IMG/VR virus record: IMGVR_UViG_3300031963_000897
Span: 1-24,407 of that record
Direction: 5' to 3' (one strand)
DNA length: 24,407 bases
Source: a virus
The notes under the pieces are model-generated. The model saw only the letters and a list, made by a program, of their open reading frames with translations. It did not search any database and was not told the origin of the DNA. Below are positions 2,669-24,407 of this stretch, piece by piece. Each line of letters begins with the position of its first letter. Position 1 is the stretch's first letter. Position numbers and translations under genes: made by a program.

Positions 2669-2677
2669 CTCACTCAT

Positions 2678-2700: not shown

Positions 2701-2717
2701 AGAAAAGGAGAGATCAA

Positions 2718-2975: not shown

Positions 2976-3124
2976 CCCCCCTCTGGCCCTTCCCCGCCTT
3001 CCCCCGCACCGCCCGGGCGGCGCGGGCGGAACAGCCGCGCCCCATCGCCAAACCGCGCAGCAGCAAGCCGCGCAGCAAGCCGCGCAGCAGCAAGCCGCGC
3101 ACAACCGAGCAAGGAATTTTCTGA
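2972..3124 (+). CDS. 50-aa basic Ser/Lys/Pro/Arg-repeat protein
   Basis: This short gene joins its neighbours by ATGA (2972) at the front and TGATG (3124) at the back. The N-terminus MTPLWPFPAF is hydrophobic and proline-rich. Residues 27-44 are a run of S/K/P/R units (KPRSSKPRSK, then PRSSKPR) encoded by tandem CCGCGCAGC(AGC)AAG repeats. The composition resembles a histone-like tail or another nucleic-acid-binding peptide. It has no strong ribosome site and would depend on coupling. The function is unknown. That it is a gene is supported by the exact overlaps and an uninterrupted frame, but it is short. Confidence 0.55.
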   Translation: MTPLWPFPAFPRTARAARAEQPRPIAKPRSSKPRSKPRSSKPRTTEQGIF

Positions 3125-3246
3125 TGACCGACTACCAGACTCGCAAGGCCCGCATGGAGCCGCACGCCCGCGATCCGTGGTGGGCGTGGCCCTTCGCCAT
3201 TGCCTGCGGCGTGCTGTGGGCAACCGCTCTCGTTTACGGGTTCTGA
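3124..3246 (+). CDS. 40-aa single-pass membrane protein
   Basis: This small protein has a charged N-terminus (MTDYQTRKARMEPHARDP) followed by one hydrophobic helix (WWAWPFAIACG, then VLWATALVYGF) that ends the chain. A basic head and C-terminal anchor predict an inner-membrane protein with the head in the cytoplasm. AAGGA lies 9 bases before the ATG, which overlaps the upstream TGA. Small early phage membrane proteins can serve exclusion or host-interference roles, but this one is not recognised. Confidence 0.6.
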   Translation: MTDYQTRKARMEPHARDPWWAWPFAIACGVLWATALVYGF

Positions 3247-3249
3247 CCA

Positions 3250-3420
3250 ATGTACAGCACCCTCACTACCAAGCATCTCAGCGATGCCATCACGGTCCTG
3301 TACCGCGTTGCTTACGACAAAGAGCAGTCTTACGAATTGCAAGCCGCTGCGATGAAAGCAGCGGTGGCCCTTGAGGTCAACGGACTGGGCCAGCGGGTCG
3401 AAGTGCGCGAGGAGGCGTGA
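3250..3420 (+). CDS. Hypothetical 56-aa protein
   Basis: This is an unrecognised small, probably helical protein: MYSTLTTKHLSDAITVLYRV followed by an amphipathic helix with ELQAAAMKAAVALEVNG. It starts 3 bases after the previous stop and its end contains the GAGGAGG that serves as the ribosome site of the next gene, so it is embedded in a coupled run. The frame is intact over its full length. No motif supports a function. Confidence 0.5.
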   Translation: MYSTLTTKHLSDAITVLYRVAYDKEQSYELQAAAMKAAVALEVNGLGQRVEVREEA

Positions 3421-3422
3421 GC

Positions 3423-3635
3423 ATGGAAGGCTACCCGATCAAGGTCCGGGGCGCTCAGTTGGTCGCGCATATCAACTGGAAGTGGACAAGCATTACGCAC
3501 AACGAACTGTATTTGGCCATTGAGTACCCTGATGGCCGCGATGCGGAGTGGACCGCGCACCTCCGCGAAGAGGAGTATGACGACATTGACCGGCAAGTGA
3601 TGGCCCAGATGCGCGGGCGGGGCTACGACATCTAA
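3423..3635 (+). CDS. Hypothetical 70-aa protein
   Basis: This protein is unrecognised. It begins MEGYPIKVRGAQLVAHINW and looks like a beta-rich N-terminal half followed by an acidic helix (HLREEEYDDIDRQVMAQM). The ATG at 3423 is preferred over the overlapping GTG at 3417 because GGAGG lies 8 bases before the ATG but only 2 before the GTG. It is the last gene before a short GC-rich hairpin. Confidence 0.6.
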   Translation: MEGYPIKVRGAQLVAHINWKWTSITHNELYLAIEYPDGRDAEWTAHLREEEYDDIDRQVMAQMRGRGYDI

Positions 3636-3643
3636 CCCACCCT

Positions 3644-3660
3644 CCCCCGCAAGGGGGGGG
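3644..3660 (+). other. C5-GCAA-G8 hairpin between early genes
   Basis: Five C's, a GCAA tetraloop-type loop and a run of eight G's form a short strong hairpin just after the stop at 3635 and 15 bases before the ATG at 3675. No T-tract follows, so it is not a standard intrinsic terminator. It may protect mRNA ends or modulate translation of the next gene. The G8 run is a possible slippage site. Confidence 0.35.
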
Positions 3661-3674
3661 AATATAGGACAACC

Positions 3675-4172
3675 ATGATCTACACCACACTCAACCGCGT
3701 GCGGGAACACCACCCATGCGCTGACGGCTGGCGCAAACTGCTGACGCATCTCAACAAGACGCAGGCAGACGACGAGCCGCTGGCGCTCGCCACGATCCTC
3801 CAGTCTAACGGTCTGGACGACGCAATCTGGTGCCTGCGAGCAGTCGATGGCCACGAGAAGGAGATGCGCCTCTACGCTGTCTGGTGTGCACGGCAGGTGC
3901 AGCACCTGATGAAAGACCCACGCAGTCTGGCCGCGCTCGACGTTGCGGAACGCCACGCGCATGGACAAGCGACGGATGATGAGTTGGCCGCAGCGGGGGC
4001 CGCAGCGTGGGCCGCAGCGTGGGACGCAGCAAGGGAAGCAGCGTGGGCCGCAGCGTGGGCCGCAGCGAGTGCCGCAGCGGTGGCGGCGTGGGACGCAGCG
4101 TGGGACGCAGCGAGTGCCGCAGCGCGTGAGGCGCAGATCGCTGAGTTCGTTCGTGTGTTCTGTCATAACTGA
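3675..4172 (+). CDS. Phage protein with Ala/Trp tetrapeptide-repeat tail
   Basis: This 165-aa protein has two parts. Residues 1-104 are globular and helical: MIYTTLNRVREHHPCADGW, then IWCLRAV, AVWCARQVQHL and DPRSLAALDVAERHAHGQAT. Residues 105-150 are an alanine array of four-residue units of the form A-A-A/W-x with W, D, R, E, S or V interspersed (AAWAAAWDAAREAAW), which should form a long helix. Proteins of this plan are frequent in phages of Proteobacteria and are sometimes labelled putative immunity proteins, but I know of no demonstrated function. The tail is encoded by a 12-base GC-rich repeat, so its length may vary between relatives. AGGA upstream of the ATG is a weak ribosome site. 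It is followed closely by the Sak4-like gene. Confidence 0.8.
   Translation: MIYTTLNRVREHHPCADGWRKLLTHLNKTQADDEPLALATILQSNGLDDAIWCLRAVDGHEKEMRLYAVWCARQVQHLMKDPRSLAALDVAERHAHGQATDDELAAAGAAAWAAAWDAAREAAWAAAWAAASAAAVAAWDAAWDAASAAAREAQIAEFVRVFCHN
3987..4124 (+). repeat. 12-base coding tandem repeat (Ala-rich tail)
   Basis: Imperfect 12-base units based on GCCGCAGCGTGG and GACGCAGCGTGG recur in frame. Interruptions are whole codons, so the reading frame is kept. The antisense frames open here only because of the repeat composition. Confidence 0.75.
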
Positions 4173-4184
4173 AGGAGAACCAAC

Positions 4185-4862
4185 ATGGCCATATCACTCA
4201 AGTCCACCTCCGACGCTCACGAATCTGGCGTTGACATCCTCGTGTACGGCGCTGCCGGCGCAGGTAAGACCAGTCTCATCCCAACCCTTCCCGCGCCCAT
4301 CATCCTGAGCGCAGAGGGTGGCCTGCTGTCGATTGCGGGCGCGGCGCTGCCCTACATCGAGATCAACAACATGGAGACGCTGCGCGAAGCGTGGGACTGG
4401 CTCGCGCACTCGGCCGAGGCGCAGCAGTACCAGTCGGTGGCGCTGGACAGCATCAGCGAGATCGCTGAGGTGGTCCTGGTGGGCGAAAAGAAGGCGGCAA
4501 AAGACCCGCGTCAAGCCTACGGGGCCATGCAGGAAGCCATGAGCGACATCATCCGCGCCTTCCGCGACTTGCCTGGGCGAAACGTCTACATGAGCGCCAA
4601 GCTCGAAAAGCAGCAGGACGAGATGGGGCGCGTGCTCTACTCGCCATCGATGCCCGGCAACAAGACGGGCCAGAGCCTCCCGTACTTTTTCGACGAGGTT
4701 TTGGCCCTGCGCGTCGAGAAAGATTCCGAGGGCGTGCCCCAGCGGGCGCTGATGTGCCACAGCGACGGTGTGTGGCAGGCGAAGGACCGCAGCGGCAGAC
4801 TGGACACTTGGGAGACGCCGGACCTTGGAGCGTTGATTGCAAAGATTGGGGGGAAAGCGTGA
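4185..4862 (+). CDS. Sak4-like RecA-fold ATPase (AAA_24), recombination/annealing
   Basis: This 225-aa P-loop ATPase is of the AAA_24 type, typified by phage Sak4, a short RecA-core protein that assists single-strand annealing recombination and replication fork repair with a phage SSB. Walker A is GAAGAGKTS (22-30); the Walker B candidate is SVALDSISEI (D88). The length matches the family. Blocks such as YGAMQEAMSDIIRAFRDLP and VYMSAKLEKQQDEMGRVLYS are hallmarks I recognise from phage homologues. AAGGAGAA lies just before the ATG. It begins the DNA metabolism run, followed by DUF3310 through a GTGA overlap, and a DUF669-type ssDNA-binding candidate lies two genes further on. That is the neighbourhood expected for Sak4. 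Confidence 0.88.
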   Translation: MAISLKSTSDAHESGVDILVYGAAGAGKTSLIPTLPAPIILSAEGGLLSIAGAALPYIEINNMETLREAWDWLAHSAEAQQYQSVALDSISEIAEVVLVGEKKAAKDPRQAYGAMQEAMSDIIRAFRDLPGRNVYMSAKLEKQQDEMGRVLYSPSMPGNKTGQSLPYFFDEVLALRVEKDSEGVPQRALMCHSDGVWQAKDRSGRLDTWETPDLGALIAKIGGKA

Positions 4863-5110
4863 GCGCACTGGAGACTCAGATCAACGGCAAGCATTACAAG
4901 GAGCTTGCCATCCAGCCCGTGGAGTTCATCCACGCCAACGGCATCGGCTACATGGAGGGCAACGTCATCAAGTACGTCACCCGCTGGAAGGCAAAAGGCG
5001 GGCTGGCCGACTTGGAGAAGGCGAAGCATTACATCGAACTGTTGATCGAACTGGAACAGAAGCAGGCTGCGCCGAGCTTTGCCGCTTGGACTGAGGGGGT
5101 ATCCCGATGA
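4859..5110 (+). CDS. DUF3310 family protein (T7 gp1.7-like domain)
   Basis: This 83-aa protein begins at GTG 4859, overlapping the Sak4-like stop by 4 bases. Residues 12-62 carry the DUF3310 signature: HYKELAIQPVEFIHANGIG, then YMEGNVIKYVTRWKAKGG and LADLEKAKHYIELLI. The same domain occurs in T7 gp1.7, described as a nucleotide kinase, so a link to nucleotide metabolism is possible, but this stand-alone domain is far shorter and lacks a P-loop. The GTG is chosen because the frame upstream is a shadow of the ATPase gene and GGGGGGAAA precedes it. The next gene overlaps by ATGA. Confidence 0.85.
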   Translation: MSALETQINGKHYKELAIQPVEFIHANGIGYMEGNVIKYVTRWKAKGGLADLEKAKHYIELLIELEQKQAAPSFAAWTEGVSR

Positions 5111-5490
5111 GACTCCAACACCTCGCCGAGGCCTGGATGCAGGCCAAAGAGGATGAGCGCGCCGCCACCGAGCGCCGCCGCGAGATCGAGGATCAGATCC
5201 GATCGCTCGCCAACATCGCGGACGATTCGGAGGGCGTCCAGAACGTCGATGCTGGGCTTTGGAAGGTCAAAGTGACCTGCCGCCTCGACCGGAAGGTGGA
5301 CAGCGACAAGGTCCAGGAACTCGCTTACGAGAACGGGCTGACCGATCACCTCGCCACCCTGTTCCGCTGGAAACCCGAGATCAACATGAAGGCCTGGGAC
5401 GCAGCCGCGCCTCAGATCACCACCGCGCTGGCCGGCGCGATCACCACGAAACCCGGCCGTCCCTCGTTTGCCATTCAACCCAAGGAGTAA
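5107..5490 (+). CDS. Helical phage protein next to Sak4/SSB (DUF7173-like)
   Basis: This 127-aa protein has an N-terminal charged helix (HLAEAWMQAKEDERAATERR, then REIEDQI), a strand pair around LWKVKVTCRLDRKVD, and a conserved-looking C-terminus (HLATLFRWKPEINMKAWD, then ITTKPGRPSF). I recognise this pattern from small proteins that sit between AAA_24 and DUF669 genes in other phages and have been catalogued as a domain of unknown function. The family number is from memory. A role with the annealing or SSB machinery is inferred from position only. It overlaps the previous stop by ATGA and is followed by AAGGAG for DUF669. Confidence 0.7.
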   Translation: MRLQHLAEAWMQAKEDERAATERRREIEDQIRSLANIADDSEGVQNVDAGLWKVKVTCRLDRKVDSDKVQELAYENGLTDHLATLFRWKPEINMKAWDAAAPQITTALAGAITTKPGRPSFAIQPKE

Positions 5491-5495
5491 GCCAA

Positions 5496-5999
5496 ATGGC
5501 CCAACTGAACGAAGTCTTTGAAGTCGCATCTCTCCCCGTCGGCAACGGCGGCAACTATGACCCGCTGCCTGCCGGGTGGTACGACACCACCATCGCCGCG
5601 GCCGAGGTCAAGCCCACGAAAGACGGGACTGGCCAGTACATCAAGATCAAATATCAGGTGACCGGCCCCACGCACAGCGGGCGGGTGGTATTCGGCAACA
5701 TCAACGTGAGGAACGCTTCGCAAAAAGCCGAGGAGATCGGCCGGCAACAACTCGGCGAACTGATGCGGGCGCTCAACATCCCACGCCTGACCGACACCGA
5801 TCAACTGATCGGCGGGATGCTGGGGATCAAGCTCGACGTTCGCGCAGCGACGGAGCAGTACGCGGCGCAGAACGAGGTGCGGGGGTTTCGAGCGGGCAAC
5901 GGCATGGCTGGCATGGCCGGCGATGTGCCGACCTTTGCGCCGACGAAGCCGACTGCCGCGCCGAGCAAGGGCGCTGCGCCGCCGTGGGCTAAGCGTTAA
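5496..5999 (+). CDS. DUF669 protein, probable phage ssDNA-binding protein
   Basis: This 167-aa protein has the DUF669 pattern: YDPLPAGWYDTTIAAAEVKP, then GQYIKIKYQVTGPTHSGRVV, FGNINVRN and QQLGELMRALNIP. Such proteins are small OB-like beta proteins encoded with phage recombinases and thought to coat single-stranded DNA. The C-terminal third is a flexible Gly/Met/Ala/Pro stretch ending APPWAKR, which could act as an interaction tail. AAGGAG is 8 bases before the ATG, a strong site consistent with a protein needed in quantity. It is the last gene before an 84-base gap with a strong hairpin. Confidence 0.82.
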   Translation: MAQLNEVFEVASLPVGNGGNYDPLPAGWYDTTIAAAEVKPTKDGTGQYIKIKYQVTGPTHSGRVVFGNINVRNASQKAEEIGRQQLGELMRALNIPRLTDTDQLIGGMLGIKLDVRAATEQYAAQNEVRGFRAGNGMAGMAGDVPTFAPTKPTAAPSKGAAPPWAKR

Positions 6000-6002
6000 G
6001 CC

Positions 6003-6051
6003 AAAAAAAATCCCCCGCTGCGGTGCTGCATTGCGCAGTCGCTAGCGGGGG
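6003..6051 (-). terminator. Intrinsic terminator facing leftward, inside the rightward operon
   Basis: An 8-bp stem pairs CCCCCGCT (6012-6019) with AGCGGGGG (6044-6051), with an inner CTGC/GCAG helix (6026-6029 with 6035-6038). On the minus strand the stem is followed by ATTTTTTTT (6011-6003), the classical form. On the plus strand only GCAAGTTTC follows, so rightward termination should be weak. No leftward gene lies within 9 kb to its right. It may stop antisense transcription, or partially attenuate or protect the rightward mRNA. Confidence 0.65.
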
Positions 6052-6083
6052 CAAGTTTCAACCCGCAGGAGACAGGAGAGAAC

Positions 6084-7130
6084 ATGGAACTACCACAGCC
6101 CCAGCATAGCATAGCCGCGCTGATTGACAAGGCCCATGAGGAGCGGGCTGCTGCTGACCCCGAGCGGTTTCGCGAGCACCTGGGCGGCAGCGTGCTCGGC
6201 CACCCGTGCGCCCGGTGGCTCTGGCTGTCGTTTCGCTGGGCGGTGGCCCCCAGCTTCCCGGGGCGCATCCTGCGATTGTTTCGCCGTGGCCAGAACGAGG
6301 AGGCGCAGATTGTCAGCGACCTGCGGGCCATTGGCATCGACATCCGCGAGACGGGCGACCACCAGCGGCGCATCTCGCCCGCCCCGCACCTGGGCGGAAG
6401 CATCGACGGGATCATCTATTCCGGCGTGCCGGAAGCGCCGGCCAAGCGCCACATTGCCGAGTTCAAAACGCATAGCGCCAAGTCTTTCGACAAGCTGGAG
6501 CGCGAAGGCGTCAAGAAGGCGCACCACCAGCATTGGGTGCAGATGCAGGTTTATATGCACGGGACGGCGGACAAAATCGACCGCGCCCTGTATGTCGCTG
6601 TCTGCAAAGATGACGATCGCCTGTACACCGAGCGGGTGGAGTATGACAAGCAGGCGGCTGAGAAGGCGATCCAGCGGGGGAAAGACATCGTTTCAGCCGA
6701 CCGCCCGCCGCTCCGCATCAACGGCGATCCGTCTTGGTGGCAATGCAAGATGTGCCAAGCGCACGACCTGTGTCACGGGTCCAAGCTGACCCGCGAGGTC
6801 AACTGCCGTACCTGTGCCCACAGCACGCCGCTGGATGACGGCCAATGGCGCTGCGAGCGCCATGACGCTGACGGCATTCCGGTCGAGTACCAGCGCACCG
6901 GCTGCGAGAGCCATGCGCTGCACCCAGACCTTGTGCCGTGGGAAATGGACAAACCGGTGGATCAGTGGACGCCGGTATTCATCATCAACGGCAAGCGTGT
7001 CGCCAACGGCGAGGCCGACGCGCACATCTTCAGCAGCCGCGAGATTGTCGCCAACCCCGCCGCCTGCGACCCCGAGGATGAGGAGTTGCGGGGGCTGCGG
7101 GAGGGGTTGGAGGGGAGGGTGGTGGGGTGA
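6084..7130 (+). CDS. PD-(D/E)XK exonuclease, Cas4/RecB-like with Cys clusters
   Basis: This 348-aa nuclease of the PD-(D/E)XK superfamily is expected to resect or trim DNA for phage recombination or replication. The active-site pattern is clear: GGSIDGII (D108), HIAEFKTH (E126, K128) and HWVQMQVYMH (Q153), the usual D, ExK and Q order. C42 and a C-terminal set C221, C224, C230 resemble the iron-sulfur ligands of Cas4/AddB-type nucleases. A second Cys group (C241, C244, C257, C274) suggests an additional metal site. Residues 276-348 include a WTPVFIINGKRV segment and an acidic end. The GGAGA sites before the ATG are strong. It overlaps the methyltransferase-like gene by GTGA and belongs with Sak4, DUF669 and VRR-NUC as the recombination set. 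Confidence 0.87.
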   Translation: MELPQPQHSIAALIDKAHEERAAADPERFREHLGGSVLGHPCARWLWLSFRWAVAPSFPGRILRLFRRGQNEEAQIVSDLRAIGIDIRETGDHQRRISPAPHLGGSIDGIIYSGVPEAPAKRHIAEFKTHSAKSFDKLEREGVKKAHHQHWVQMQVYMHGTADKIDRALYVAVCKDDDRLYTERVEYDKQAAEKAIQRGKDIVSADRPPLRINGDPSWWQCKMCQAHDLCHGSKLTREVNCRTCAHSTPLDDGQWRCERHDADGIPVEYQRTGCESHALHPDLVPWEMDKPVDQWTPVFIINGKRVANGEADAHIFSSREIVANPAACDPEDEELRGLREGLEGRVVG

Positions 7131-7723
7131 GAGTCCTAGTCGCTTGCGAATATAGCGGGGCCGTCCGCGATGCCTTTATTGCCGCCGGCCACGATGCCAT
7201 GTCCTGCGATTTGCTGCCGACCGACGCAACCGGGCCTCATTATCAAGGCGATGTCCGAGATGTGATCGGCAATGGCTGGGATCTGATGGTGGCGCATCCT
7301 CCATGCACTTACTTGGCAGTCAGCGGGATGCACTGGACAAAACGAGGTCTGCGCGATCCTCAACTGACGGAAGATGCGCTCGACTTTGTGCATTTGCTGA
7401 TGGATGCGCCAATCCCGCGCATTGCTGTCGAGAATCCCGTCAGTGTGATCAGCAGTCGCATCCGAAGGCCGGATCAGATTGTGCAGCCGTGGATGTTTGG
7501 ACATGACGCTAGCAAAAAGACTTGCCTGTGGCTGAAGAACCTGCCGCCGCTAAGACCGACTCATATGGTCGAGCCGCGCACAATCAACGGCAAGCCGCGA
7601 TGGGGAAACCAGACGAATAGCGGCCAGAATCGGCTAGCCCCGAGCGCCGACCGCTGGAAGATCCGTAGCGAGACTTATGCCGGCATTGCTCAAGCTATGG
7701 CGCAGCAGTGGGGGGTTCTATGA
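7127..7723 (+). CDS. DNA cytosine-5 methyltransferase-like protein
   Basis: This 198-aa protein has a Rossmann-type SAM-binding start, MRVLVACEYSGAVRDAF (motif I), then HDAMSCDLLPT, WDLMVAHPPCTYLAVSG (PPC at 58-60, matching the catalytic Cys loop of C5-methyltransferases) and VENP (101-104, matching the ENV motif). It is much shorter than full m5C methyltransferases and has little room for a target-recognition domain after motif VIII. It may therefore be a minimal or divergent orphan enzyme, of a kind common in phages, that modifies phage DNA against restriction. The GTG at 7127 is used because it overlaps the exonuclease stop (GTGA) after a long G-rich stretch with GGGAGG. The end overlaps the helicase ATG (ATGA). 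Confidence 0.82.
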   Translation: MRVLVACEYSGAVRDAFIAAGHDAMSCDLLPTDATGPHYQGDVRDVIGNGWDLMVAHPPCTYLAVSGMHWTKRGLRDPQLTEDALDFVHLLMDAPIPRIAVENPVSVISSRIRRPDQIVQPWMFGHDASKKTCLWLKNLPPLRPTHMVEPRTINGKPRWGNQTNSGQNRLAPSADRWKIRSETYAGIAQAMAQQWGVL

Positions 7724-9330
7724 ACCTCCGACCCTACCAACAACACGCCTTGGATCAACTCTACGACTGGCTCTCCAACAACCCAGGCCACCCGGTCATC
7801 AACCTGCCAACCGGAAGCGGCAAGTCTATCGTCATCGCTGAACTATGCCGGCAGGCGGTGCAGCAATGGCCTGAGACGCGCATTCTCATGCTCACCCGCA
7901 GCTTGGAATTGATCGAGCAGAACGCTGCCAAGCTGCGGGCAATCTGGCCCGGTGCCCCGATGGGGATTTATAGCGCCAGCATTGGTCGCAAGGAACTGGA
8001 CGAACCCATCACGATAGGCGGGCCGCTGTCCATCGTCAATGCGCTGGACCGAATGAAGCACATCGATCTGTGCTTGGTCGATGAATGCCATGACATAAGC
8101 CACCGAGACGAGGGCAGTTACCGGGAGATCATCAAGCACTTGATGAGCCTAAACCCTGCCATGCGCGTGATCGGGTTCACCGCTAGCCCTTTCAGAATGG
8201 GGCATGGGCTTATCACGGACAAGCCTGCCATCTTCGACGCCATCATCGAGCCAACGTCAATCTTGGAGTTGATCGAGCAGGGCTTTCTGTCGGTGATGCG
8301 AAGCAAGACGACCGCGCTTACCTATGACCTGAAGGGGGTCAAGAAGCGCGGCGGGGACTATGTAGAGGCCGACCTTCAGCGAGTCATCGACACTGACGAC
8401 AACAACGCGCAGATGGTCCGCGAAGTGATCGAGCGCGCAGGAGATCGCAAGTCCTGGATGTTCTTTTGCTCGGGCGTGGCTCACGCTGAGCACGTTTCCG
8501 AATTGCTTAATCAGCATGGTGTGAGCGCGGTTCCAGTCACCAGCATGATGCGCAAGGAGGAGCGTGCGACTGCAATTGCAGCCTTCCGTTCCGGGGCTAT
8601 CCAAGCGGTGACCAACGTCAACTGCCTGTCCACCGGCTTCGACCATCCTGAGATTGATCTGCTGGTGCTGGCCCGCCCAACGATGTCCCCAGGCTTGTAC
8701 CTTCAGCAAGTCGGGCGAGGCTTGCGTGTTGCACCCGGCAAGCGGGACTGCTTGGTTCTCGACTTTGCCGGCAATGTCGCCCAACACGGCCCCATCACCG
8801 CCGTGCAGCCGCCTCGCTCGGCAGGCTCAGGCGATGGCGATGCGCCGGTCAAAGTTTGCGATGCCTGCGCCGAGCTATGCCACATCTCGGCCAAGGAGTG
8901 TCCTGCTTGTGGGCACCCGTTCCCGCCGGCCAAGAAAGAACCGCTGACGCTGCGCTCGGACGACATCCTTGGCCTAGAAGGGCTGGTGCTAGAGGTTGGC
9001 TCATGGCGCTGGCGAAAGCACGTTAGCCGCACCAGCGGGCTTGCCATGTTGGCTGCGACGTATTACGGGCAGGCTCTAAGCGATCCGTCCATCACCGAAT
9101 ACTTCCCCGTGCTGCACGAGGGCTACGCCGGCCAGAAGGCTCTAGCTGCGGTCGCAAGCATCGCCAACGCATCGCAGGCCGATGGTGGCCTGTTCAGTCA
9201 CCAGACACTAGAGGAGATCGCTTATGGGCTTTCGCAAGCCACCGCGCCGTCGCGCATTGAGTACAAGCGAGACGGAAAGTTTCATCGAATCCTCCGGCGA
9301 TCCTGGGAGCAAGCGCACGCAACCGTCTGA
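7720..9330 (+). CDS. SF2 DEAD/DEAH-box helicase, RadD-like, with zinc ribbon
   Basis: This 536-aa superfamily 2 helicase unwinds DNA or remodels forks using ATP. Motifs in order are RPYQQHALDQL (Q-like motif, 4-14), TGSGKS (31-36, Walker A), DECH (121-124), TAS (154-156), TGFDHPEIDLLVLARPT (305-321) and QQVGRGLR (329-336, motif VI). A Cys4 ribbon follows at C380, C383, C394 and C397, then an uncharacterised C-terminal domain of about 140 residues. This resembles E. coli RadD (YejH), which also has a zinc element after the helicase core. I chose ATG 7720 over GTG 7708 because the ATGA overlap with the methyltransferase-like gene is typical of this operon. Its last 107 bases overlap the VRR-NUC gene. 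Confidence 0.9.
   Translation: MNLRPYQQHALDQLYDWLSNNPGHPVINLPTGSGKSIVIAELCRQAVQQWPETRILMLTRSLELIEQNAAKLRAIWPGAPMGIYSASIGRKELDEPITIGGPLSIVNALDRMKHIDLCLVDECHDISHRDEGSYREIIKHLMSLNPAMRVIGFTASPFRMGHGLITDKPAIFDAIIEPTSILELIEQGFLSVMRSKTTALTYDLKGVKKRGGDYVEADLQRVIDTDDNNAQMVREVIERAGDRKSWMFFCSGVAHAEHVSELLNQHGVSAVPVTSMMRKEERATAIAAFRSGAIQAVTNVNCLSTGFDHPEIDLLVLARPTMSPGLYLQQVGRGLRVAPGKRDCLVLDFAGNVAQHGPITAVQPPRSAGSGDGDAPVKVCDACAELCHISAKECPACGHPFPPAKKEPLTLRSDDILGLEGLVLEVGSWRWRKHVSRTSGLAMLAATYYGQALSDPSITEYFPVLHEGYAGQKALAAVASIANASQADGGLFSHQTLEEIAYGLSQATAPSRIEYKRDGKFHRILRRSWEQAHATV
9212..9216 (+). promoter_or_regulatory. Ribosome binding site deciding the VRR-NUC start
   Basis: AGGAG lies 7 bases before the ATG at 9224, inside the helicase coding sequence. 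It is the best-placed ribosome site for the nuclease frame and supports the long out-of-frame overlap instead of a later start. Confidence 0.6.
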
Positions 9331-9694
9331 GGCTGCCCGCCAGCCCAACGAGGCCCGCCTCCCATCAGAGCACGTCGAGCAGCGCGAGTTCGTCGCATGG
9401 TTCCGCAAGCGGTATGTGGGCGTGAGGATCATCGCCATTCCAAACGGCGGCATCAGGGGCGCAGCAGCGGGGGCAAGGCTCAAGGCCGAGGGTGTGTCGC
9501 CGGGTGTTCCAGATTTGTACATTCCAGCATGGAAGCTGTGGATCGAGATGAAGCGCCAGCGGGACTACACCGTGGCCAAAGAGCAACGAGACTGGATTGA
9601 CTACTTGCAGAAGATTGGAGACTGTGCGATTGTGTGTCGGGGCTTCGCTGAGGCTCGCACACTAGTGCTTACATGGAGAGGTGAAGATGAGTAA
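9224..9694 (+). CDS. VRR-NUC domain nuclease
   Basis: This 156-aa VRR-NUC protein is a compact PD-(D/E)XK nuclease related to the catalytic domain of FAN1 and to stand-alone phage Holliday-junction or flap nucleases. The domain covers about 48-150: EHVEQREFVAWFRKRY, AIPNGG (71-76), GARLKAEG, GVPDLYIPAW (D97), WIEMKRQ (E108, K110) and KEQRDWIDYL, with CAIVCRGFAEA at the end. This is a complete active site. Residues 1-45 are an Arg/Ser-rich, probably disordered extension encoded within the helicase 3' end in another frame. The position directly after a helicase suggests the two act on the same branched DNA. It overlaps the next gene by 8 bases. Confidence 0.9.
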   Translation: MGFRKPPRRRALSTSETESFIESSGDPGSKRTQPSEAARQPNEARLPSEHVEQREFVAWFRKRYVGVRIIAIPNGGIRGAAAGARLKAEGVSPGVPDLYIPAWKLWIEMKRQRDYTVAKEQRDWIDYLQKIGDCAIVCRGFAEARTLVLTWRGEDE

Positions 9695-17163: not shown

Positions 17164-19475
17164 TACTGCGCTCCTTCAATTGACGGGGTAGTGGTGCGGA
17201 ATTGGCCGGAGCGGATGAGGTTGACACGCTCTTGCTCTCGGATTTTGCGCGCTTTCAGCAGCCGGTAGGTGTTGGCCATGATTAGTTCGCGCTCGGTTTT
17301 GCTCTTGCTGTCCAGACCTTCCAAGTCCATGAGAGCCGCGCGTTCGCCTTCAGTCGGGTTGCCGCCAAAGGATGCGCGCAGTTTCTCAATTGCGCCTCGG
17401 CCCAACAGATTGCGTTGTGCGCGGGTAGCCAGCACGCGCGGATCATCAGGGTCCATTTGCTCAGTGACTTTTTGCTGAGCAATGCCAGCCCAAGTACCGT
17501 CAAAGGTGTCTGGATTGATAGCAAACGCCCGTGCAAGCACCGAAATCGAATCGTTCAACGCGCCGAGCGTTTGGATGCCTTCATCCAGCATCTTGGTCTC
17601 GGTCGGCGAAAGCTTTTGAGCCTCAGTGGCTTTGCGAGCAGACTCTTCCTGCTTGATGCCGAGACCGGCTTGCGCTACACCAAGATTGCCTTGAGCGATT
17701 GCAAGCTGTGCCTGCTTAAACATCTCGCCGGAAGCAAGCTTGCGCTCAACATACGAACTCACAAAGTCGTTGTAATCCTTCGTGCCTGGAGAAAGGCCCA
17801 TGTCCGCAGCCGCTTTCCCAGCCTCAGACTGCGGGCGCCCGCTCTTCATGTATTCCATCAGCAACGCCCGCCGATCTTTCATCTCTTCGCCAGCCAGCCC
17901 GCGCAGCGAGGCGACGTCTTCGCGCGCGGCGCCGACGCGCGACTTGGCGATCTCCATCGCAAGCTGACGGCGCATCTGCTCATCAGCCCTGCGGGTGGCC
18001 CTAATCTCTTGCCGATGCGAAGCAAGTTCCTTGCCCACCGCGCCCAAAGTCTCCCCTATCGTGCCGGTCCGCGTCGGAGCACCAAAAGCTGCTGCAAGCC
18101 GGAAATAAAGCTCAGCCTTGTCCGGGGGGTCACGTTCGCTTGTGGCCATTTGGCGCAGCATCTGCTCAAAATTGGCGCTCTCTGCTGCTGCCCGTTCGCG
18201 CGCAGCACGCAGTTCCGGTCCATAGGACGATTCTTGCCCCATGTAGCGCTGCACCATCGACATCAGATCCATCGCAGGCGGCGACACAGGCGTCGTGGGG
18301 GTCGCAGGAGGCACAACAGGCTGCGCAGCAGGAGAATCAATGATTGCCGGAGCCATTGGCGCAGGCATGGCAGGCGCAGGCATAGCAGGCGCAAGCATGG
18401 CAGGCTCGACACCTCGCGGCATGACCAGTCCTGGCACATCAGATCCCATGCTCAGTTCCGTCTCAAACTCCTGCTCTTCTTCGCCGTCCCGACCGCCGCG
18501 CGCAAACTTGCGAACCGTCCCGCCGTTGGCGTATTTGCGCGCCAGCGCATGGACTCCGCCACCGTGTGCGTAACCGGATGGGGGTTCAGAATACATACCC
18601 TCGCTTGGCACCGTTGCACTAGCCCCCGACCAAGCAGTCCCAGCCGGCCTGCCCAGCAGGACATTGCGAGCCTCCATCATTTGCTGGTCGGTCGCGCCGC
18701 GTGCCCGCGCCTGCTGAATGATCTGATCTTCCGTCATCCCTTGCGTGGAAAGCTGACGGTAGTAGTTCGCAAGCCCCTGCGGGCTCATGTCGAGCACGCC
18801 ACCAGTCGGCACAACACTGGGCGCGGCTGGCGCGGCCGGCGTTGCCTGCGTTTGTCCTGCAAGCTGATTGGCCTGAGCCCACGAACTGCCAGCAGGAACA
18901 CCCAGCAGCAGATTGCGAGCCTCATTCATCTGCGTATCAGTGACCCCCCTGCCACGAAGGTGCGAAACCATTTCCGACTCAGGCATCCCTGCCGTCCGCG
19001 CAAGCCCATAATAGTCTGCAAGCGCTTGCGGTGTGCGACCCTGCTCACCAGGAACCGCAGGACGCAGTGTGGCAGCCGGAGCGCGCAGCACGTTGCCCCA
19101 GTAGTTGCCAGTCGCATCATAAATGTCACGGTTGCTGATGCCAGTGGCTTGCTGCGCCGCACGAATCTGCTCATTAGACGCGTTGGGGTTCGCCGCAACT
19201 GCCGAGCGAATCTGATCCTGCAACCCTTGCAGACCAATCCCGCCGGGTGAAGTTACGCCTTGCACCGCAGGCGACGCATCACTGTAATCGCCCGCAGGCG
19301 TCGTGCGAAACTGCGCCTGAAGATACTGCGGCGTGTTCGCAATCCTGCTGATGAAGTCCTGTCGATACTGATCGTAAGCGGCGCGGGTCGCGTCAGTGGC
19401 TTCCTTGGGTGGCGGGGCAATCGTTGGCGTTGCAACACCCAGTTCGCGCATCAGACGATTGAGTTCAAAGCCCAT
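17163..19475 (-). CDS. Putative structural protein with repeated helical modules, 770 aa
   Basis: This protein is of virion type. Residues 150-199 and 234-283 are tandem copies of one module: ALADYYGLARTAGMPESEMV ... LLLGVPAGSSWAQ and GLANYYRQLSTQGMTEDQII ... LLGRPAGTAWSG. A shorter related helix pair lies near 82-120. A Gly-rich stretch follows (GYAHGGGVHALARKYANGG, then TVRKFARGG, 301-328), then an acidic patch and a Pro/Ala/Met linker (about 357-402). The C-terminal half is charged and helical (ELRAARERAAAESANFEQML, then RATRRADEQMRRQLAMEIAK), likely coiled coil. AAGGGG lies before the ATG, 10 bases after the giant repeat gene. Large proteins of this plan are found in tail or ejection modules of environmental phages; the exact role is unknown. 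Confidence 0.66.
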   Translation of the reverse strand: MGFELNRLMRELGVATPTIAPPPKEATDATRAAYDQYRQDFISRIANTPQYLQAQFRTTPAGDYSDASPAVQGVTSPGGIGLQGLQDQIRSAVAANPNASNEQIRAAQQATGISNRDIYDATGNYWGNVLRAPAATLRPAVPGEQGRTPQALADYYGLARTAGMPESEMVSHLRGRGVTDTQMNEARNLLLGVPAGSSWAQANQLAGQTQATPAAPAAPSVVPTGGVLDMSPQGLANYYRQLSTQGMTEDQIIQQARARGATDQQMMEARNVLLGRPAGTAWSGASATVPSEGMYSEPPSGYAHGGGVHALARKYANGGTVRKFARGGRDGEEEQEFETELSMGSDVPGLVMPRGVEPAMLAPAMPAPAMPAPMAPAIIDSPAAQPVVPPATPTTPVSPPAMDLMSMVQRYMGQESSYGPELRAARERAAAESANFEQMLRQMATSERDPPDKAELYFRLAAAFGAPTRTGTIGETLGAVGKELASHRQEIRATRRADEQMRRQLAMEIAKSRVGAAREDVASLRGLAGEEMKDRRALLMEYMKSGRPQSEAGKAAADMGLSPGTKDYNDFVSSYVERKLASGEMFKQAQLAIAQGNLGVAQAGLGIKQEESARKATEAQKLSPTETKMLDEGIQTLGALNDSISVLARAFAINPDTFDGTWAGIAQQKVTEQMDPDDPRVLATRAQRNLLGRGAIEKLRASFGGNPTEGERAALMDLEGLDSKSKTERELIMANTYRLLKARKIREQERVNLIRSGQFRTTTPSIEGAQ
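18618..18776 (-). repeat. Module 2 of the two-copy repeat in the 770-aa protein
   Basis: It encodes residues 234-286: QGMTEDQIIQQARARGATD followed by QMMEARNVLLGRPAG. The conserved positions form two helices with a G-T/A-T-D-x-Q-M turn, repeated at an 84-residue offset. Confidence 0.7.
18870..19028 (-). repeat. Module 1 of the two-copy repeat in the 770-aa protein
   Basis: It encodes residues 150-202. The motif AGMPESEMVSHLRGRGVTD followed by QMNEARNLLLGVPAG aligns without gaps to module 2. Confidence 0.7.
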
Positions 19476-19485: not shown

Positions 19486-22400
19486 TTATCCCAGATTCTG
19501 AAGCCCGCGCCCGACCAGCGCCAGTTGCGCCAGTTGCGTGAGCCCCGATGGAGAGTATGCTTGACCAGTTGCTTGCGTCGAACTGGTTTGCGTGGTTGGC
19601 GTAATCGGGGCGATGCCACGCAGTTGATTGTTGAGCCACTCGGCCTGCTGCCTAGCATAATCCCGTTCAGCCGCAAACTGCTGGTAAGCAGCATCGTATT
19701 GGCGTTGTTGCTGCGCCTGCTGAGAGGCGCCGGCAGCTTCCAGCGACGCAACATCAGCGGCGCGAAGACCTTGCTCTTGTTGAGCCAGCGTTGCAATTTG
19801 TTGCAGAGCCGACTGTTGCCGTGCAAGATCAGTTGAGCGTGCGGTCGCTGCCGTATTCGCAAGGTTCGTCAGCGCGGCCTGTTGGCCGGCAGTCAGATTG
19901 CCCATCAGTTGGGCCTGCTGGCCGTACTGCTGCGCCCCCTGCAACTGCTGCCCAATCGCCGACTGTTGCAACCCAGCCAGAGCCTGCCCGCCTTGCAAGA
20001 TTGCCTGCTGTTGGGCGCTTGTCAGTGCGCCAACATTCTGGCCAATCTGCCCAAGCTGCGCAGCGCCAGTCAAGCGCTGGCCAATCGCGGCCTGCTGTGT
20101 CCCGGCGAGAGCTTGCCCGACATTCAGCAACGCGGCTTGCTGCGCCTGAGTCAAGCCGCCAAGCGTCTGACCAACCTGCCCCATCTGCGCCGCGCCTGCG
20201 AGTTGCTGCGCGATTTGTTGCTGATACGCGCCCTGCGCGGCTTGTCCCGCTCCCAGCAGCGTAGCCTGTTGCGCTTGCGTGAGGCCGCCGAGGATTTGGC
20301 CCATCTGGCCCAGTTGCGTGCCGCCAGACAACATCCTAGTCAGATCCGCCTGCTGCGCTGCCTGAGAGGCTTGCGCGGCTTGCAGCGCGGCGGCCTGCTG
20401 TTGCCCGCCAAACGTGCCCGCAATCTGCCCCAGTTGACCCTGGGCTTGCGCCGCAGCCAGCGCCCGAGCAACATCCGTTGCCTGCGCGCCCTGCGCCGCT
20501 TGCGCAGCCTGGAGGGCCGCTGCCTGCTGCTGGCCTGCAAAGCCACCAGCAACCTGCCCCAACTGCCCCTGCGCCTGCGCTGCTGCGAGGATGCGAGCAG
20601 CGTCAGTCGTTTGAGCGGATTGAGCAGCTTGAGCAGCTTGCAGAATCGCAGCTTGCTGTTGAGTCCCGAGAGCCCCCAGCGCTTGCCCAAACTGACCTTG
20701 CGTTTGCGCTGCTGCTAGAGCCCGAGCGGCATCGCTGGTCTGAGCGGCTTGCGTGGCCTGTGCGGCTTGCAGTTGCGCCGCCTGTGCCTGCGTGCCAAGA
20801 CCGCCCATCGTGCCTGCCAGTCCTGCCTGCGCCTGCGCCGCCGCCAAGGCTCGCGCCGCGTCAGTCGATTGAGCGGCTTGCGTGGCCTGCGCAGCTTGCA
20901 GAGCAGCGCCTTGCTGTTGCGTCCCCAGCGCGCCAAGCGTTTGCCCAACCTGGGCCTGAGCCTGCGCCGCAGCCAGCGCGCGCGCCGCATCGGTCGCTTG
21001 CGCAGCCTGCGTAGCCTGCGCTGCCTGCAATTCAGCAGCCTGCTGTTGCGTACCCAGCGCGCCAGTGACCTGACCAATCTGAGCCTCTTGCTGCGCAGCG
21101 GCGAGCGCTCGCGCTGCATCCGAAGTCTGTGCCGCCTGTGCCGCTTGGGCGGCTTGCAGAGCAGCAGTCTGTTGCTGAGTGCCCAGCGCGCCAGCCGCTT
21201 GGCCCAGTTGGCCCTGCGCTTGCGCAGCAGCAAGTGCGCGCGCGGCGTCTGTTGCTTGAGCAGCTTGCGCAGCTTGCGCGGCGCCAAGTTCCGCAGCCTG
21301 CTGCTGAGTGCCAAGCGTGCCAAGCGCTTGCCCTGCTTGCGTCTGCTGCTGAGCCGCAGCAAGCGCTCGGGCCGCATCTGATGCTTGCGCAGCCTGCGCT
21401 GCTTGTGCCGCGCTCACGCCCAGTTGCTGTTGACCAAGGCCCGCCGCCGTCTGCGCTTGCCCCAAGCTTGCGAGCGCTTGCGCCTGCTGCGCCGTAAGTT
21501 GCCCCGTCGTCTGCCCCAGTTGGGCCAGCGTTTGCATCTGCTGCCCAGTCAACTGCCCAGCCGTCTGGCCGAGTTGCGCAAACTGCCCGGCGCCTTGCAG
21601 GATGCGCGAAAGATCCGCACCGGCCACTTGGCCAGCAGTCCCGGCAAGTTGGGCCTGCCGCGCAAGATCCGCCTGCGCTGCGCTAACGGCCTGCCCGTAG
21701 CCTTGTTGCAGGGCCTGCGACTGTTCGCGCAGGATCGCCTCTTGAGTGTCGCGCAGCGCGCGGCGCCCGAACTCACCCATGCGGCTTGAGCCAAACTGCC
21801 CAGCCCGCACAAAGGCATCGGAAACCTCGGGCAGCAGGTTCTCTCGCAGATTCCGCGCGCCACGCTGCGCGATTGCGTTAAGCACCCCCTCTTGATATGG
21901 GCTCATGTACTGCTGGACCCCGCCCGCCGCAGTGCCCGCCGCCGCTTGCATATAAGGCTGAGCAGCCGCGAACGCTCGCTCAGCAAGCGATTGGCCAGCA
22001 GCCTGACCGGACATCCCCAGGAACGGCTGAGCCGCTGCCATGAGATCGTATCCAGCCGCGCGCTCCAGCATAGGCGCCGCAGCCTGCGCTGCATCCATCG
22101 CCCCAGCGCGGCCAAACGCAGTCTGCCCCGCGCCCAGCGCTTGCTGCGCCAGTGAGGGTTGCAGGTACTGCCCTTGCGCAGCCTCTAGCTGATTGGCGGT
22201 TTCAATATCCCCCGCTGCTGCGGCGCGCTGCGCTGCATCGCTCAGGTATGGTTGGGCGATGTCCAATCCGCCACGTTGCAGCGCACCGGCCTGCGCTGCC
22301 TCAAGTCGGTTGGCGGTTTCGATGTCCCCAGCCGCTGCGGCGCGTTGTGCGGCATCGCTGAAATAAGGCTGCGCAACGTCCAGGCCGCCCCGCTGAAGGG

Positions 22401-23880
22401 CGGCGGCTTGTGTTGCCTCCAGCCGGTCAGCAGTCTCAACATCTCCCGCATCAGCCGCCCGTTGCGCTGCCGCGCTCAGATACGGGCGCGCCGCTCCAAT
22501 GCCGCTGCGGGTTAGAGCGTCCTGCTGAGCCGCAGAGAGTTGCCCAGCAGTCTGCACAGCACCCGCTGCGCCCGCGCCTGCCGCAGCAGTGCCAAGCAGC
22601 GGCTGAGCAATGTCCAGACCACCGCGCTGAAGCGCACCGGCTTGCGCTGCTTCCAGCCGGTTGGCCGTTTCGATGTCACCAGCAGCAGCAGCGCGCCGTG
22701 CGGCGTCGCTTGCATACGGCTGCGCGGTTGTGAGCCCGCTTTGCTGCAGAGCAGCCTGTTGGGCAGATCGCAGTTGCTCGGCAGTCTGAACACCACCGGC
22801 CGCACCCGCTTGCTCAGCAGCAGCACCAATCATCGGCTGGGCAATGCTCAGGCCAGATTGCGCAAGGCCCGCAGCTTGATCAGCGCGCAGTTGCTCGGCG
22901 GTACGGATGCCTGCCGCTTCGCCAATGCCTGCGCCTGCCGCACCCAGATACGGGGCCGCCGCGCCAAGAGCACTGCGTTGCAGCGCAGCAGATTGATCAG
23001 CTCGGAGTTGGGAAGCAGTATCGGCAGCCCCAGCAGCAGCAAGGCCAGTGCCGGCAGTTGCAAGATACGGCGCCGCCGCCGTAGTCGCGCCTTGCGCCAA
23101 AGCGCCCGCTTGGTCGGCGCGAAGCTGCCCAGTAGTTCCTTGGGTTGCTGCGCCGCCAATCAGCCCAACCCCTTGCGACACCAGCGGCTGCGCGGCGCCC
23201 ACGGTGCTCATGCCCGTAGCGCCAGACACAAATGGCTGAAGTGCCCGCACGCCCGCGCTGTAGTCCATCCCCTGCAACTGACCGACTTGGTTTTGCAGGA
23301 AAGGCGCAGCAGCACCGACCCCGCTCATGCCGCCAGCGGTTGTTGCATATGGGGACAGGTAGCCGAGCGATGCCCCGTAATTCATGCCGCCCAGTTGCGC
23401 AGCTTGCTGCTGGAAATACGGGTTTGCAGCAGCCGCACCACTGGTCTGAAGAGCCTGACCAACAAAGGGCGCATACGTCCCAGCGGGCTGAGCATAGTTG
23501 ATGCCGCGCAGCATGGAAGACTGTTGCTGCATTGCAGGCTGCGCCGCGCCAACTTGATTAAGCGCGCCTGCTTGAGAGATGAACGGTTGAGCCGCTGCTG
23601 CGCCGCCAGGGCCTTGCGCAATCTGTTGGGTGCCTCTTGCAGCAGTCTGAAACGCCGGCCGGTATGCCCCCGCGTTTTGTCGAGCCTGCGTGTATGCCTG
23701 CTGTTGCAGTGGCGACAGTTCAGCAACCGTCGGCAGGTTGTACGCTTGGTAAGGCGTGGCCGCGACATTGAGCGCGGCATTGACCTGATTGTAAATAGCC
23801 TCCTGCATCCACCTCGGCGTTTCCGTTGAGGAGGTCGTCGCCGAAAAAGACGACAGAGGGGTGCCTTGGAAAATGCTCAT
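19486..23880 (-). CDS. Giant Ala/Gln-rich repeat virion protein, 1464 aa
   Basis: This is a probable structural or DNA-delivery protein. The N-terminus (about 20-85: TPRWMQEAIYNQVNAALNVA, then TPYQAYNLPTVAELSPLQQQ) resembles the start of large virion proteins I know from environmental phages. Then come three 39-residue units (124-240), eight exact 39-residue units (253-564) and a non-repeat domain (about 580-760), whose block QQYMSPYQEGVLNAIAQRG ... VRAGQFGSSRMGEFGRRALR is also familiar from such phages. Twelve exact 43-residue units follow (824-1339), then a helical coil to about 1418 and a Thr/Gln/Ser tail. There are almost no Cys residues and no catalytic motif. The start is fixed by an ATGA overlap with the upstream gene. 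A long fibrous or rod-like helical body is the best structural guess. Relatives may differ in repeat number. Confidence 0.75.
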   Translation of the reverse strand: MSIFQGTPLSSFSATTSSTETPRWMQEAIYNQVNAALNVAATPYQAYNLPTVAELSPLQQQAYTQARQNAGAYRPAFQTAARGTQQIAQGPGGAAAAQPFISQAGALNQVGAAQPAMQQQSSMLRGINYAQPAGTYAPFVGQALQTSGAAAANPYFQQQAAQLGGMNYGASLGYLSPYATTAGGMSGVGAAAPFLQNQVGQLQGMDYSAGVRALQPFVSGATGMSTVGAAQPLVSQGVGLIGGAATQGTTGQLRADQAGALAQGATTAAAPYLATAGTGLAAAGAADTASQLRADQSAALQRSALGAAAPYLGAAGAGIGEAAGIRTAEQLRADQAAGLAQSGLSIAQPMIGAAAEQAGAAGGVQTAEQLRSAQQAALQQSGLTTAQPYASDAARRAAAAGDIETANRLEAAQAGALQRGGLDIAQPLLGTAAAGAGAAGAVQTAGQLSAAQQDALTRSGIGAARPYLSAAAQRAADAGDVETADRLEATQAAALQRGGLDVAQPYFSDAAQRAAAAGDIETANRLEAAQAGALQRGGLDIAQPYLSDAAQRAAAAGDIETANQLEAAQGQYLQPSLAQQALGAGQTAFGRAGAMDAAQAAAPMLERAAGYDLMAAAQPFLGMSGQAAGQSLAERAFAAAQPYMQAAAGTAAGGVQQYMSPYQEGVLNAIAQRGARNLRENLLPEVSDAFVRAGQFGSSRMGEFGRRALRDTQEAILREQSQALQQGYGQAVSAAQADLARQAQLAGTAGQVAGADLSRILQGAGQFAQLGQTAGQLTGQQMQTLAQLGQTTGQLTAQQAQALASLGQAQTAAGLGQQQLGVSAAQAAQAAQASDAARALAAAQQQTQAGQALGTLGTQQQAAELGAAQAAQAAQATDAARALAAAQAQGQLGQAAGALGTQQQTAALQAAQAAQAAQTSDAARALAAAQQEAQIGQVTGALGTQQQAAELQAAQATQAAQATDAARALAAAQAQAQVGQTLGALGTQQQGAALQAAQATQAAQSTDAARALAAAQAQAGLAGTMGGLGTQAQAAQLQAAQATQAAQTSDAARALAAAQTQGQFGQALGALGTQQQAAILQAAQAAQSAQTTDAARILAAAQAQGQLGQVAGGFAGQQQAAALQAAQAAQGAQATDVARALAAAQAQGQLGQIAGTFGGQQQAAALQAAQASQAAQQADLTRMLSGGTQLGQMGQILGGLTQAQQATLLGAGQAAQGAYQQQIAQQLAGAAQMGQVGQTLGGLTQAQQAALLNVGQALAGTQQAAIGQRLTGAAQLGQIGQNVGALTSAQQQAILQGGQALAGLQQSAIGQQLQGAQQYGQQAQLMGNLTAGQQAALTNLANTAATARSTDLARQQSALQQIATLAQQEQGLRAADVASLEAAGASQQAQQQRQYDAAYQQFAAERDYARQQAEWLNNQLRGIAPITPTTQTSSTQATGQAYSPSGLTQLAQLALVGRGLQNLG
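19864..21411 (-). repeat. Twelve 43-aa (129-base) repeats in the giant protein
   Basis: Residues 824-1339 are twelve units of exactly 43. The first eight follow AAQAAQAAQATDAARALAAA, then a Q-rich turn, GALGTQQQ and AALQ. The last four (from 1168) replace the DAAR part with QQ/IGQ-L-x-G and carry GGLTQAQQA. No unit has gained or lost a residue. Confidence 0.9.
22189..23124 (-). repeat. Eight 39-aa (117-base) repeats, type B, in the giant protein
   Basis: Residues 253-564 divide into eight units of exactly 39 with no indels. The consensus is L-[RE]-A-x-Q-x-x-A-L-x-x-x-G-L-x-x-A-x-P-Y-x, ending in ETANR/Q or QTAEQ. A truncated ninth unit begins at 565. Units 7 and 8 differ at 5 of 39 residues but at about 30 of 117 bases by hand count. 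Confidence 0.9.
23161..23511 (-). repeat. Three 39-aa repeats, type A, in the giant protein
   Basis: Residues 124-162, 163-201 and 202-240 share L-x-G-[IM]-[ND]-Y at the start and G-A-A-x-P-[YFL] later on (LRGINYAQPAG, LGGMNYGASLG, LQGMDYSAGVR). They have the same length as the type B units that follow after a 12-residue linker. Confidence 0.75.
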
Positions 23881-24407
23881 CGTGCGACTCCCGACAGGTA
23901 TGCCATCGGCTGTTTAGCATTTGGGCTGAACTTGCCGCGCGCGAGCGCTTTGCCCTTGTGTTTTCGGATTTTGCTCCGCATCGCATCAAGCCTGCGGGCG
24001 CCCTCATCAACCGACCCATCGCCCAGCATGGAAACAGTTTCAGCATCCATCACATACTCACCATCGCTCAGCCGAGCATCAATGGTGTCGTCTCGACCAG
24101 ATCCGCCGCCACGCACAAATCGAGCAACTGCGCTGAGCGGGCCGCCTTGAGCATATGCCATGCCGCCGCGCGCCATTTGTTGTTGCGGTTGCGCATAGGC
24201 CGCTTGTTGCGCGCCACCCATGCCGTAACCGCTAATGATGGGCCAGTTGGTCGCCATGTATTGGGCGAGCCCCATGTTGGAGGAGGCTGCGTCAGCCTGC
24301 ATTCTGTCCCAGTCCCACGACATCGCCGGCCGGTCGAAAAATGCCTGCTGCTCTGGGGACAGTTGCGAGATCGCTTGCTGCACAGCAGGAGGCTTGCTTC
24401 CGGCCCC
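23877..24407 (-). CDS. Putative virion protein with Gly-rich 'SDGEYVMDAE' motif (partial, 5' end beyond the window)
   Basis: The frame is open to the right edge, so at least 176 residues are present and the true start is outside; the GTG at 24383 is internal. Features are LSPEQQAFFDRPAMSWDWDR, a Met/Gly/Gln-rich stretch (MARGGMAYAQGGPL), then VRGGGSGRDDTIDARLSDGE and YVMDAETVSMLGDGS, and a basic end (DAMRSKIRKHKGKALARGKF). The GGGSGRDDTI-x-A-x-LSDGEYVM motif is frequent in large tail, tape-measure or ejection proteins of phages and marks a small beta module of unknown role. It overlaps the giant repeat gene by ATGA, so the block is one leftward operon whose promoter lies beyond the window. 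Confidence 0.7.
   Translation of the reverse strand, partial: GAGSKPPAVQQAISQLSPEQQAFFDRPAMSWDWDRMQADAASSNMGLAQYMATNWPIISGYGMGGAQQAAYAQPQQQMARGGMAYAQGGPLSAVARFVRGGGSGRDDTIDARLSDGEYVMDAETVSMLGDGSVDEGARRLDAMRSKIRKHKGKALARGKFSPNAKQPMAYLSGVAR

Follow-up and report, generated by a model that had tools for sequence, protein, structure and literature searches.

The locus and its genes

The window, by which we mean the whole stretch of 24,407 bases analysed here, is a contig of viral DNA, catalogued as a virus record. The gene of interest codes for a protein of 1464 residues which carries two repeat arrays in mirrored order on either side of a non-repeat core (Table 1). Around it the window holds one upstream gene, which is cut by the window end, and two visible downstream genes. 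The upstream protein has 615 residues when complete, as in the near-identical relative L084 (L-numbers denote loci of relatives). Its C-terminal motif, DDTIDARLSDGEYVM, resembles one in gp66 of Caulobacter phage RW and, weakly, tape-measure families. A tail tape-measure identity for the 1464-residue protein was considered and rejected, since these weak matches sit in the DDTIDARLSDGEYVM region of the neighbour and not in the protein itself.

The product of the first downstream gene ranges from 478 to 1281 residues among relatives, without tracking the arm lengths described below, and within the window this gene contains a short tandem repeat with a 15-bp unit (18358-18405). RW gp63, which holds the position of the second downstream gene, has a C-terminal SLT transglycosylase domain (Pfam); searches with family profiles gave no transglycosylase match for the 685-residue protein of the window. 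Positions 1-9694 form a replication region with genes for a primase-polymerase, a Cas4-like exonuclease, a methyltransferase and a helicase, and a short tandem repeat with the 12-bp unit GGCCGCAGCGTG is found at 3986-4124.

Table 1. Features of the repeat-bearing gene and its neighbours (aa, residues of the encoded protein).
Feature	Residues	Window positions	Strand	Remarks
Whole gene	1464 aa	19486..23880	-	probable member of the ejection-protein family, with mirrored N and C arrays; family assigned via relatives
N-terminal domain	1-96	23593..23880	-	kept in relatives; aligns to SU10 gp22
TPRWMQDAIYNQ anchor, then PLQQQAY motif	~21-32 (anchor)			within the N-terminal domain
N array, second type	97-252	23125..23592	-	4 units of 39 aa, outermost degenerate
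N array, first type	253-564	22189..23124	-	8 units of 39 aa
Inner N segment	565-693	21802..22188	-	16-aa-type motifs and first core helix (predicted)
Hairpin tip (predicted), GQFGSSR	694-700	21781..21801	-	conserved glycines; turn in the L157 model
Inner C segment	701-834	21379..21780	-	second core helix (predicted) and 18-aa-type motifs
C array, first type	835-1178	20347..21378	-	8 units of 43 aa
C array, second type	1179-1350	19831..20346	-	4 units of 43 aa, outermost degenerate
C-terminal part	1351-1464	19489..19830	-	conserved QLRGIAP anchor, 725 residues past the tip
Upstream gene		23877..24407	-	truncated by window end; C-terminal motif DDTIDARLSDGEYVM
Downstream gene 1	770 aa	17163..19475	-	position of RW gp64
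Downstream gene 2	685 aa	15106..17163	-	phrog_5880

Repeat arrays in the window protein

The eight 39-residue units of the first type follow each other at a spacing of exactly 39 without a single indel. An HMM made from the same units finds them with iE values from 7e-15 to 3e-23, and over residues 241-600 the identity at lag 39 is 0.54, whereas 200 shuffles reached no more than 0.23 at any lag. A sequence-only reading made before this analysis had placed these eight units exactly, at both the residue and the nucleotide level, and in this respect it was right; the array it described is, however, half of a larger arrangement. It counted three preceding 39-residue units of another type (residues 124-240), and the type is indeed different, but there are four of them, the outermost being degenerate (shuffle p <= 0.0002). 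Beyond the core follow 43-residue units, so that the complete order is 4 + 8 N units, non-repeat core, 8 + 4 C units, i.e., a mirror order with equal numbers. That two arrays with different fixed periods flank a non-repeat region had been recognized correctly, but the periods of 39 and 43 are not of "unrelated length": they are partner periods with equal copy numbers, like 16 and 18 in relatives.

The tip glycine of the core lies 130 residues after the inner edge of the N array and 141 residues before that of the C array, in the window protein and in L083 alike. L083 is the nearest relative having both a full-length sequence and long units; with the same HMMs it shows, on either side of the core, four strong units and a fifth, weak one.

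The repeats had been called exact, which is true of their spacing and not of the units themselves: protein identity between the eight units ranges from 0.41 to 0.87 with a mean of 0.55 (28 pairs), and at the DNA level N units share 46-74% of their bases. The earlier estimate that adjacent units differ at about 30 of 117 nucleotides and 5 of 39 residues applies to units 7 and 8 only, the other six neighbouring pairs differing at 49-57 nucleotides and 15-20 residues. With pN at 0.32, pS at 0.72 and a median dN/dS of 0.29, the proposed purifying selection on the unit is supported; because the synonymous sites are saturated, and dN/dS could not be computed for 11 of the 28 pairs, the ratio shows constraint and little more. 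The subtype order BBBABAAA can be seen in the listed units. Growth of the array by pairs of adjacent units is not supported: the identity at lag 78 (0.53) is no better than that at lag 39, and the most similar pairs are 7-8, 4-7 and 5-8. What goes together is a unit before the core and a unit after it, not a unit and its neighbour.

Slippage and misassembly are common hazards of tandem repeats, and it might be argued that the arrays are neutral, with slippage altering the copy number without consequence, or that they are an artefact of short-read assembly. We find this hardly credible. The wide divergence of the units at the DNA level means that such repeats do not collapse easily, pN is below pS, and the matched changes presented below affect two arrays that lie apart, in contigs assembled from different metagenomes.

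Relatives and the arm-length rule

Relatives were collected with the core as query (80 loci) and with two core alignments (80 loci each). Used as a query against viral contigs, the 39-residue array found two relatives, L083 and L084, and the 43-residue array alone found none. A core match was present in 240 open reading frames; the tip, whose position in homologues was set by profile, was found in 235 of these, 216 were intact and 187 distinct, or 188 with the window protein. Their lengths span from under 300 to 1464 residues, the window protein being the longest member found here.

Among the 41 sequences whose core is at least 0.35 identical to that of the window protein, the lengths of the arms on either side of the tip are correlated with r = 0.996. 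The coefficient falls to 0.845 when all 188 distinct intact homologues are taken, because the distant members, with GAFGG tips, vary the C tail alone, in 17 of 187 through an S74-like tail recognized by motif. For exact measurements the N arm was counted between the conserved N-terminal P-x-W and the tip, and the C arm between the tip and the conserved QIRG, in a hand-picked set of 23 sequences in which both anchors are present. Omitted from this set were L010, in which the C arm lacks about 21-24 residues close to its end, L012, whose lengths equal those of L011, L037 and L038, which are without the C anchor, and exact duplicates and more distant members.

For 19 hand-selected relatives with short units the arms obey N = 187 + 16k and C = 191 + 18k, with a C deviation of at most 1.1 residues and with k values of -1, 0, 1, 2, 3, 7, 9 and 15; none of 100,000 permutations was as good. 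The expectation of the sequence-only reading that length should change by whole units is thus borne out in all 19, aside from a constant N offset in three of them, and the non-unit changes among close relatives that would speak against it are absent from the 19. Outside this set L040 does deviate and breaks the rule (residuals -4/+11). The three with the offset (L029, L016 and L028) belong to one subclade and carry 22 extra residues in the N arm only, with the 16/18 steps intact.

Members with long units can be written in the same way. L025 corresponds to 3 x (16,18) + 1 x (39,43) with residuals -1/0, L083 to 5 x (16,18) + 5 x (39,43) with residuals +3/0, its five long units being present on both sides, and the window protein to 1 x (16,18) + 12 x (39,43) with residuals +1/0, in agreement with the twelve long units counted on each side.

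Five loci from genome contigs (L257-L261) were added later. L257 and L258 have arms of +18/+18 where the rule predicts +16/+18, L259 has +95/+97 which gives no integer fit, L260 has +1/-7, and L261 is without anchors. Among distant loci, long and nearly equal arms are found in L077 (500/499), L078 and L079 (226/224) and L244 (238/256), while the arms of L241 (510/177) are unmatched; the near-equal long arms in the lineages of L077, L078 and L244 are perhaps independent expansions. Other repeat periods, 14, 21 and 35, are seen in L077 (8630-11638) and L078 (6548-7909). Five MAG contigs with relatives were considered as a guide to the host. They are binned to Armatimonadetes, Nitrosomonadales, Gammaproteobacteria, Methylomonas and Bacteroidia, and this approach was rejected because binning of viral contigs is too weak for naming a host.

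Matched changes between close relatives

The changes in arm length are recent and repeated. L031 and L032 are 96.9% identical over 2640 aligned nucleotides, flanks included, and have just two indels of at least 6 nt: the N arrays differ by one of 48 nt, the C arrays by one of 54 nt. L003 and L008 (90.5% identity) differ by two 48-nt and two 54-nt indels in the gene, with small indels outside it, and L029, L016 and L028 differ from each other by matched multiples within the gene. Independent contrasts on the core tree of the 23 sequences gave r = 0.996 and a slope of 1.10, 16 of the 19 non-zero contrasts having the same sign. The lengths of the neighbouring genes were compared with the arms as well: the two downstream genes showed no coupling (Spearman 0.06 and -0.12, n = 17), and the correlation for the upstream gene was not significant (0.45, p = 0.08, n = 16).

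Co-variation of this kind could also arise if the arms were unpaired, i.e., separate helical spacers whose lengths follow each other through a third partner or because phages exchange the gene as one block. Such exchange could spread a particular k; none of the structures shows the arrays touching, the L157 model being confident in the core only; and the genealogies of N and C units show no significant match (Mantel r = 0.20, p = 0.21 for protein; r = 0.28, p = 0.11 for DNA). But block exchange leaves unexplained that exclusively matched combinations are found. The exact 16/18 and 39/43 steps, the mirrored types and the equal distances to the tip in the window protein and L083 call for a local one-to-one register, and L031 and L032 differ by one unit per array in DNA that is otherwise co-linear. 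We regard unpaired arms as quite improbable. The lengths strongly support a pairing of the arms, in which the arrays would pack side by side in antiparallel fashion.

Family identity

Short-tailed bacterial viruses push ejection proteins into the cell before their DNA. The window protein matches no family in Pfam, PHROGs (E <= 0.01) or NCBIfam; against phrog_4287 ("DNA ejection protein") its best fragment reaches E = 0.062. Since the protein itself misses this family, its filing rests on relatives that are 70-79% identical to it in the core. The profile is matched by L083 (3.3e-7), L033 (1.5e-6), L034 (3.7e-7), L036 (3.7e-11), L257 (1.2e-22) and RW gp65 (1.6e-9), the latter a protein of 333 residues without arrays; besides the window protein it is not reached by L035, L003, L077, L089 and L261. 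Phage phiM5 gp27, whose annotation records its detection in the particle proteome and also calls it a tailspike, matches at 6.5e-91, and gp21 and gp22 of phage SU10 match at 9.5e-118 and 3.5e-109.

The A2 profile was made from 44 relatives. Its alignment with SU10 gp22 alone is co-linear over 229 columns (hhalign P = 4e-5), the gaps in the query falling at the positions of the arrays, and with five members of the family together P reaches 3.5e-33. SU10 gp21 alone gave no convincing hhalign alignment with the profiles of the relatives. The gene order in L083 is adaptor, phrog_3287, a DDTI gene, the ejection-family gene and then two more; the adaptor matches Pfam SU10_adaptor at 1e-26, and phrog_3287 is also matched by the SU10 nozzle protein gp17. 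Passages of the SU10 study state that gp20-24 are in the virion and gone after genome release, and name gp22 an ejection protein by virion analysis (PMC9509320). By way of its relatives the membership of the window protein in the SU10 gp22 family is supported, as a probable assignment from sequence comparison.

A homologue at 7653-8891 of L089 (MW202545.1) is labelled "coronavirus S2 glycoprotein" in GenBank, most likely a misannotation that stems from similarity between long helices.

A Peptidase_S74 chaperone domain, which is unexpected for an ejection protein, is found by Pfam at the C-terminus of L086, L087, L257 and L258, and an S74-like tail, recognized by motif only, is present in 17 of the 187 distinct intact homologues. 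This domain is known from trimeric fibres. An alternative in which the protein is an external trimeric tail needle or fibre should be weighed: three hairpins would form a six-helix rod that probes the surface, the paired units setting its reach. The S74 domain in some members (phiM5 gp27, MW202496, L257 and L258), the tailspike annotation of phiM5 gp27 and the position of the gene near adaptor and nozzle genes are in its favour. The Pfam search found no Peptidase_S74 domain in the window protein, however, and SU10 has a separate needle, gp18 (phrog_16534), for which hhalign gave no profile match to the ejection family (probability 0.24% with A5 and 0.07% with A2), while the SU10 protein that is homologous, gp22, is the one identified as an ejection protein in the passages cited above. 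We consider a needle or fibre unlikely.

Structure predictions

By sequence no solved relative was found at E <= 1. The AlphaFold model of L157, a compact and distant relative, has helices at residues 90-120 and 126-180 with a turn at the conserved glycines between them; the pLDDT is about 74-83 over most of the length of these helices and 56.1 as a mean of the whole model, which is confident in the core only. The model of L011, a relative from the clade of the window, is poor throughout (mean pLDDT 47.7) and unfit for fold search. The Foldseek/VIA list for L157 consists of generic helical hairpins. Among the matches listed are the T7 chains 9jz0_0 and 8e4g_a, taken as gp14 from their length and residue range, with Z scores of 8.0 and 7.8 and rmsd 4.9 over 95 and 97 residues; unrelated hairpins score equally. 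Membrane helices were considered as a hint of a gp14-like pore. With a simple hydropathy threshold no segment passed as such a helix, and since T7 gp14 itself also fails, this test does not discriminate.

The C periods of 18 and 43 residues correspond to nearly whole numbers of alpha-helical turns, 5 and 12 (by arithmetic 3.60 and 3.58 residues per turn), and the N unit is shorter by 2 or 4 residues, as if it contained one or two breaks of extended chain. The hydrophobic periodicity of the arrays gave 3.59 as top peak only in the C array of L003 and was ambiguous in the others.

A proposed model for the paired arms

The reading we prefer, with a probability of roughly two thirds, is that the window protein is a DNA-ejection protein of a podovirus, belonging to the family of SU10 gp21 and gp22 (PHROG 4287), and that it is built as a helical hairpin with paired arms. 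The chain would run out along one helical arm, turn at GQFGSSR and return along the second arm, each 39-residue N unit lying beside one 43-residue C unit, and in relatives a unit of 16 beside one of 18. Both strands of a hairpin have to span an equal distance, which gives matched arms; and because the ends and the tip stay in register, a unit gained on one arm would have to be matched on the other. After ejection the protein may oligomerize into a rod or tube, as T7 gp14 does. A mechanism like that of T7 gp14 is the likeliest by analogy, and it is unproven.

The length of the arms would set the reach of the structure, which might be tuned to the envelope or surface layers of the host. With 1.5 angstrom for each of 725 residues, the window protein could reach about 100 nm at most if the C arm is a continuous helix, and less if it is folded back. 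That the quantised, two-sided steps of length evolution produce ejection rods or channels of adjustable reach, altered from one close relative to another so as to fit the thickness of the host surface, is in our judgement an even bet.

The abstract of a review calls ejection proteins mysterious (PMC8954989). The homologues studied here are variable in size, and the length changes in the clade of the window obey an exact two-sided rule. Such a rule is structural evidence, as it predicts which residues lie side by side in a protein for which no relative has been solved. With two in-frame duplications at separate places in the gene, present in matched numbers in all 19 selected relatives, the family also offers a clear example of compensatory indels. 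The natural series from k = -1 to k = 15 allows one to ask whether the reach of an ejection apparatus matches the envelope of its host. Among literature titles and abstracts, with subscription papers mostly outside the scope, no description of paired arrays in an ejection protein was found.

Comparison with known systems

The geometry resembles that of the SMC proteins, in which two segments flank a hinge and arm length is constrained with periodic preferred lengths, as stated in parts of one SMC study (PMC5344682). SMC proteins are unrelated cellular ATPases with heptad coiled coils, and the analogy is for geometry only.

The tail needle gp26 of the podovirus P22 is a long, helical protein, and its gene lies close to that of the nozzle. 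The same combination is described for the needle gp18 in passages of the SU10 study (PMC9509320). SU10 has both gp18 and members of the ejection family.

T7 gp14 is the outer-membrane channel of the T7 ejectosome. According to the structural work (PMC11784390), each ejected chain is a pair of antiparallel helices with a short loop between them, and six such chains lengthen the tail channel; it is this form that the predicted core of the hairpin may resemble. The gene leads three ejection genes, a position like that of the window gene, and gp14-like proteins are conserved in size, with 181-240 residues in 14 phages, in the part of the review that treats them (PMC8954989); the window protein with its 1464 residues is far outside this range, and gp14 is array-free. 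No sequence similarity to gp14 was found by hhalign (probability about 0.1% or less, also against a six-sequence gp14 profile). With this result, and with a fold match within the range of unrelated hairpins, T7 gp14 serves as an analogy.

The closest likeness by homology is to SU10, a Kuravirus, whose adaptor protein is related to that of L083. By hhalign SU10 gp22 is co-linear with the relatives of the window protein over a stretch that starts in the N-terminal domain, includes the tip and ends in the C-terminal part, and its arms are nearly equal (128/122). SU10 gp22 and gp21, with 322 and 350 residues, are array-free, whereas the window protein has 12 + 12 long units.
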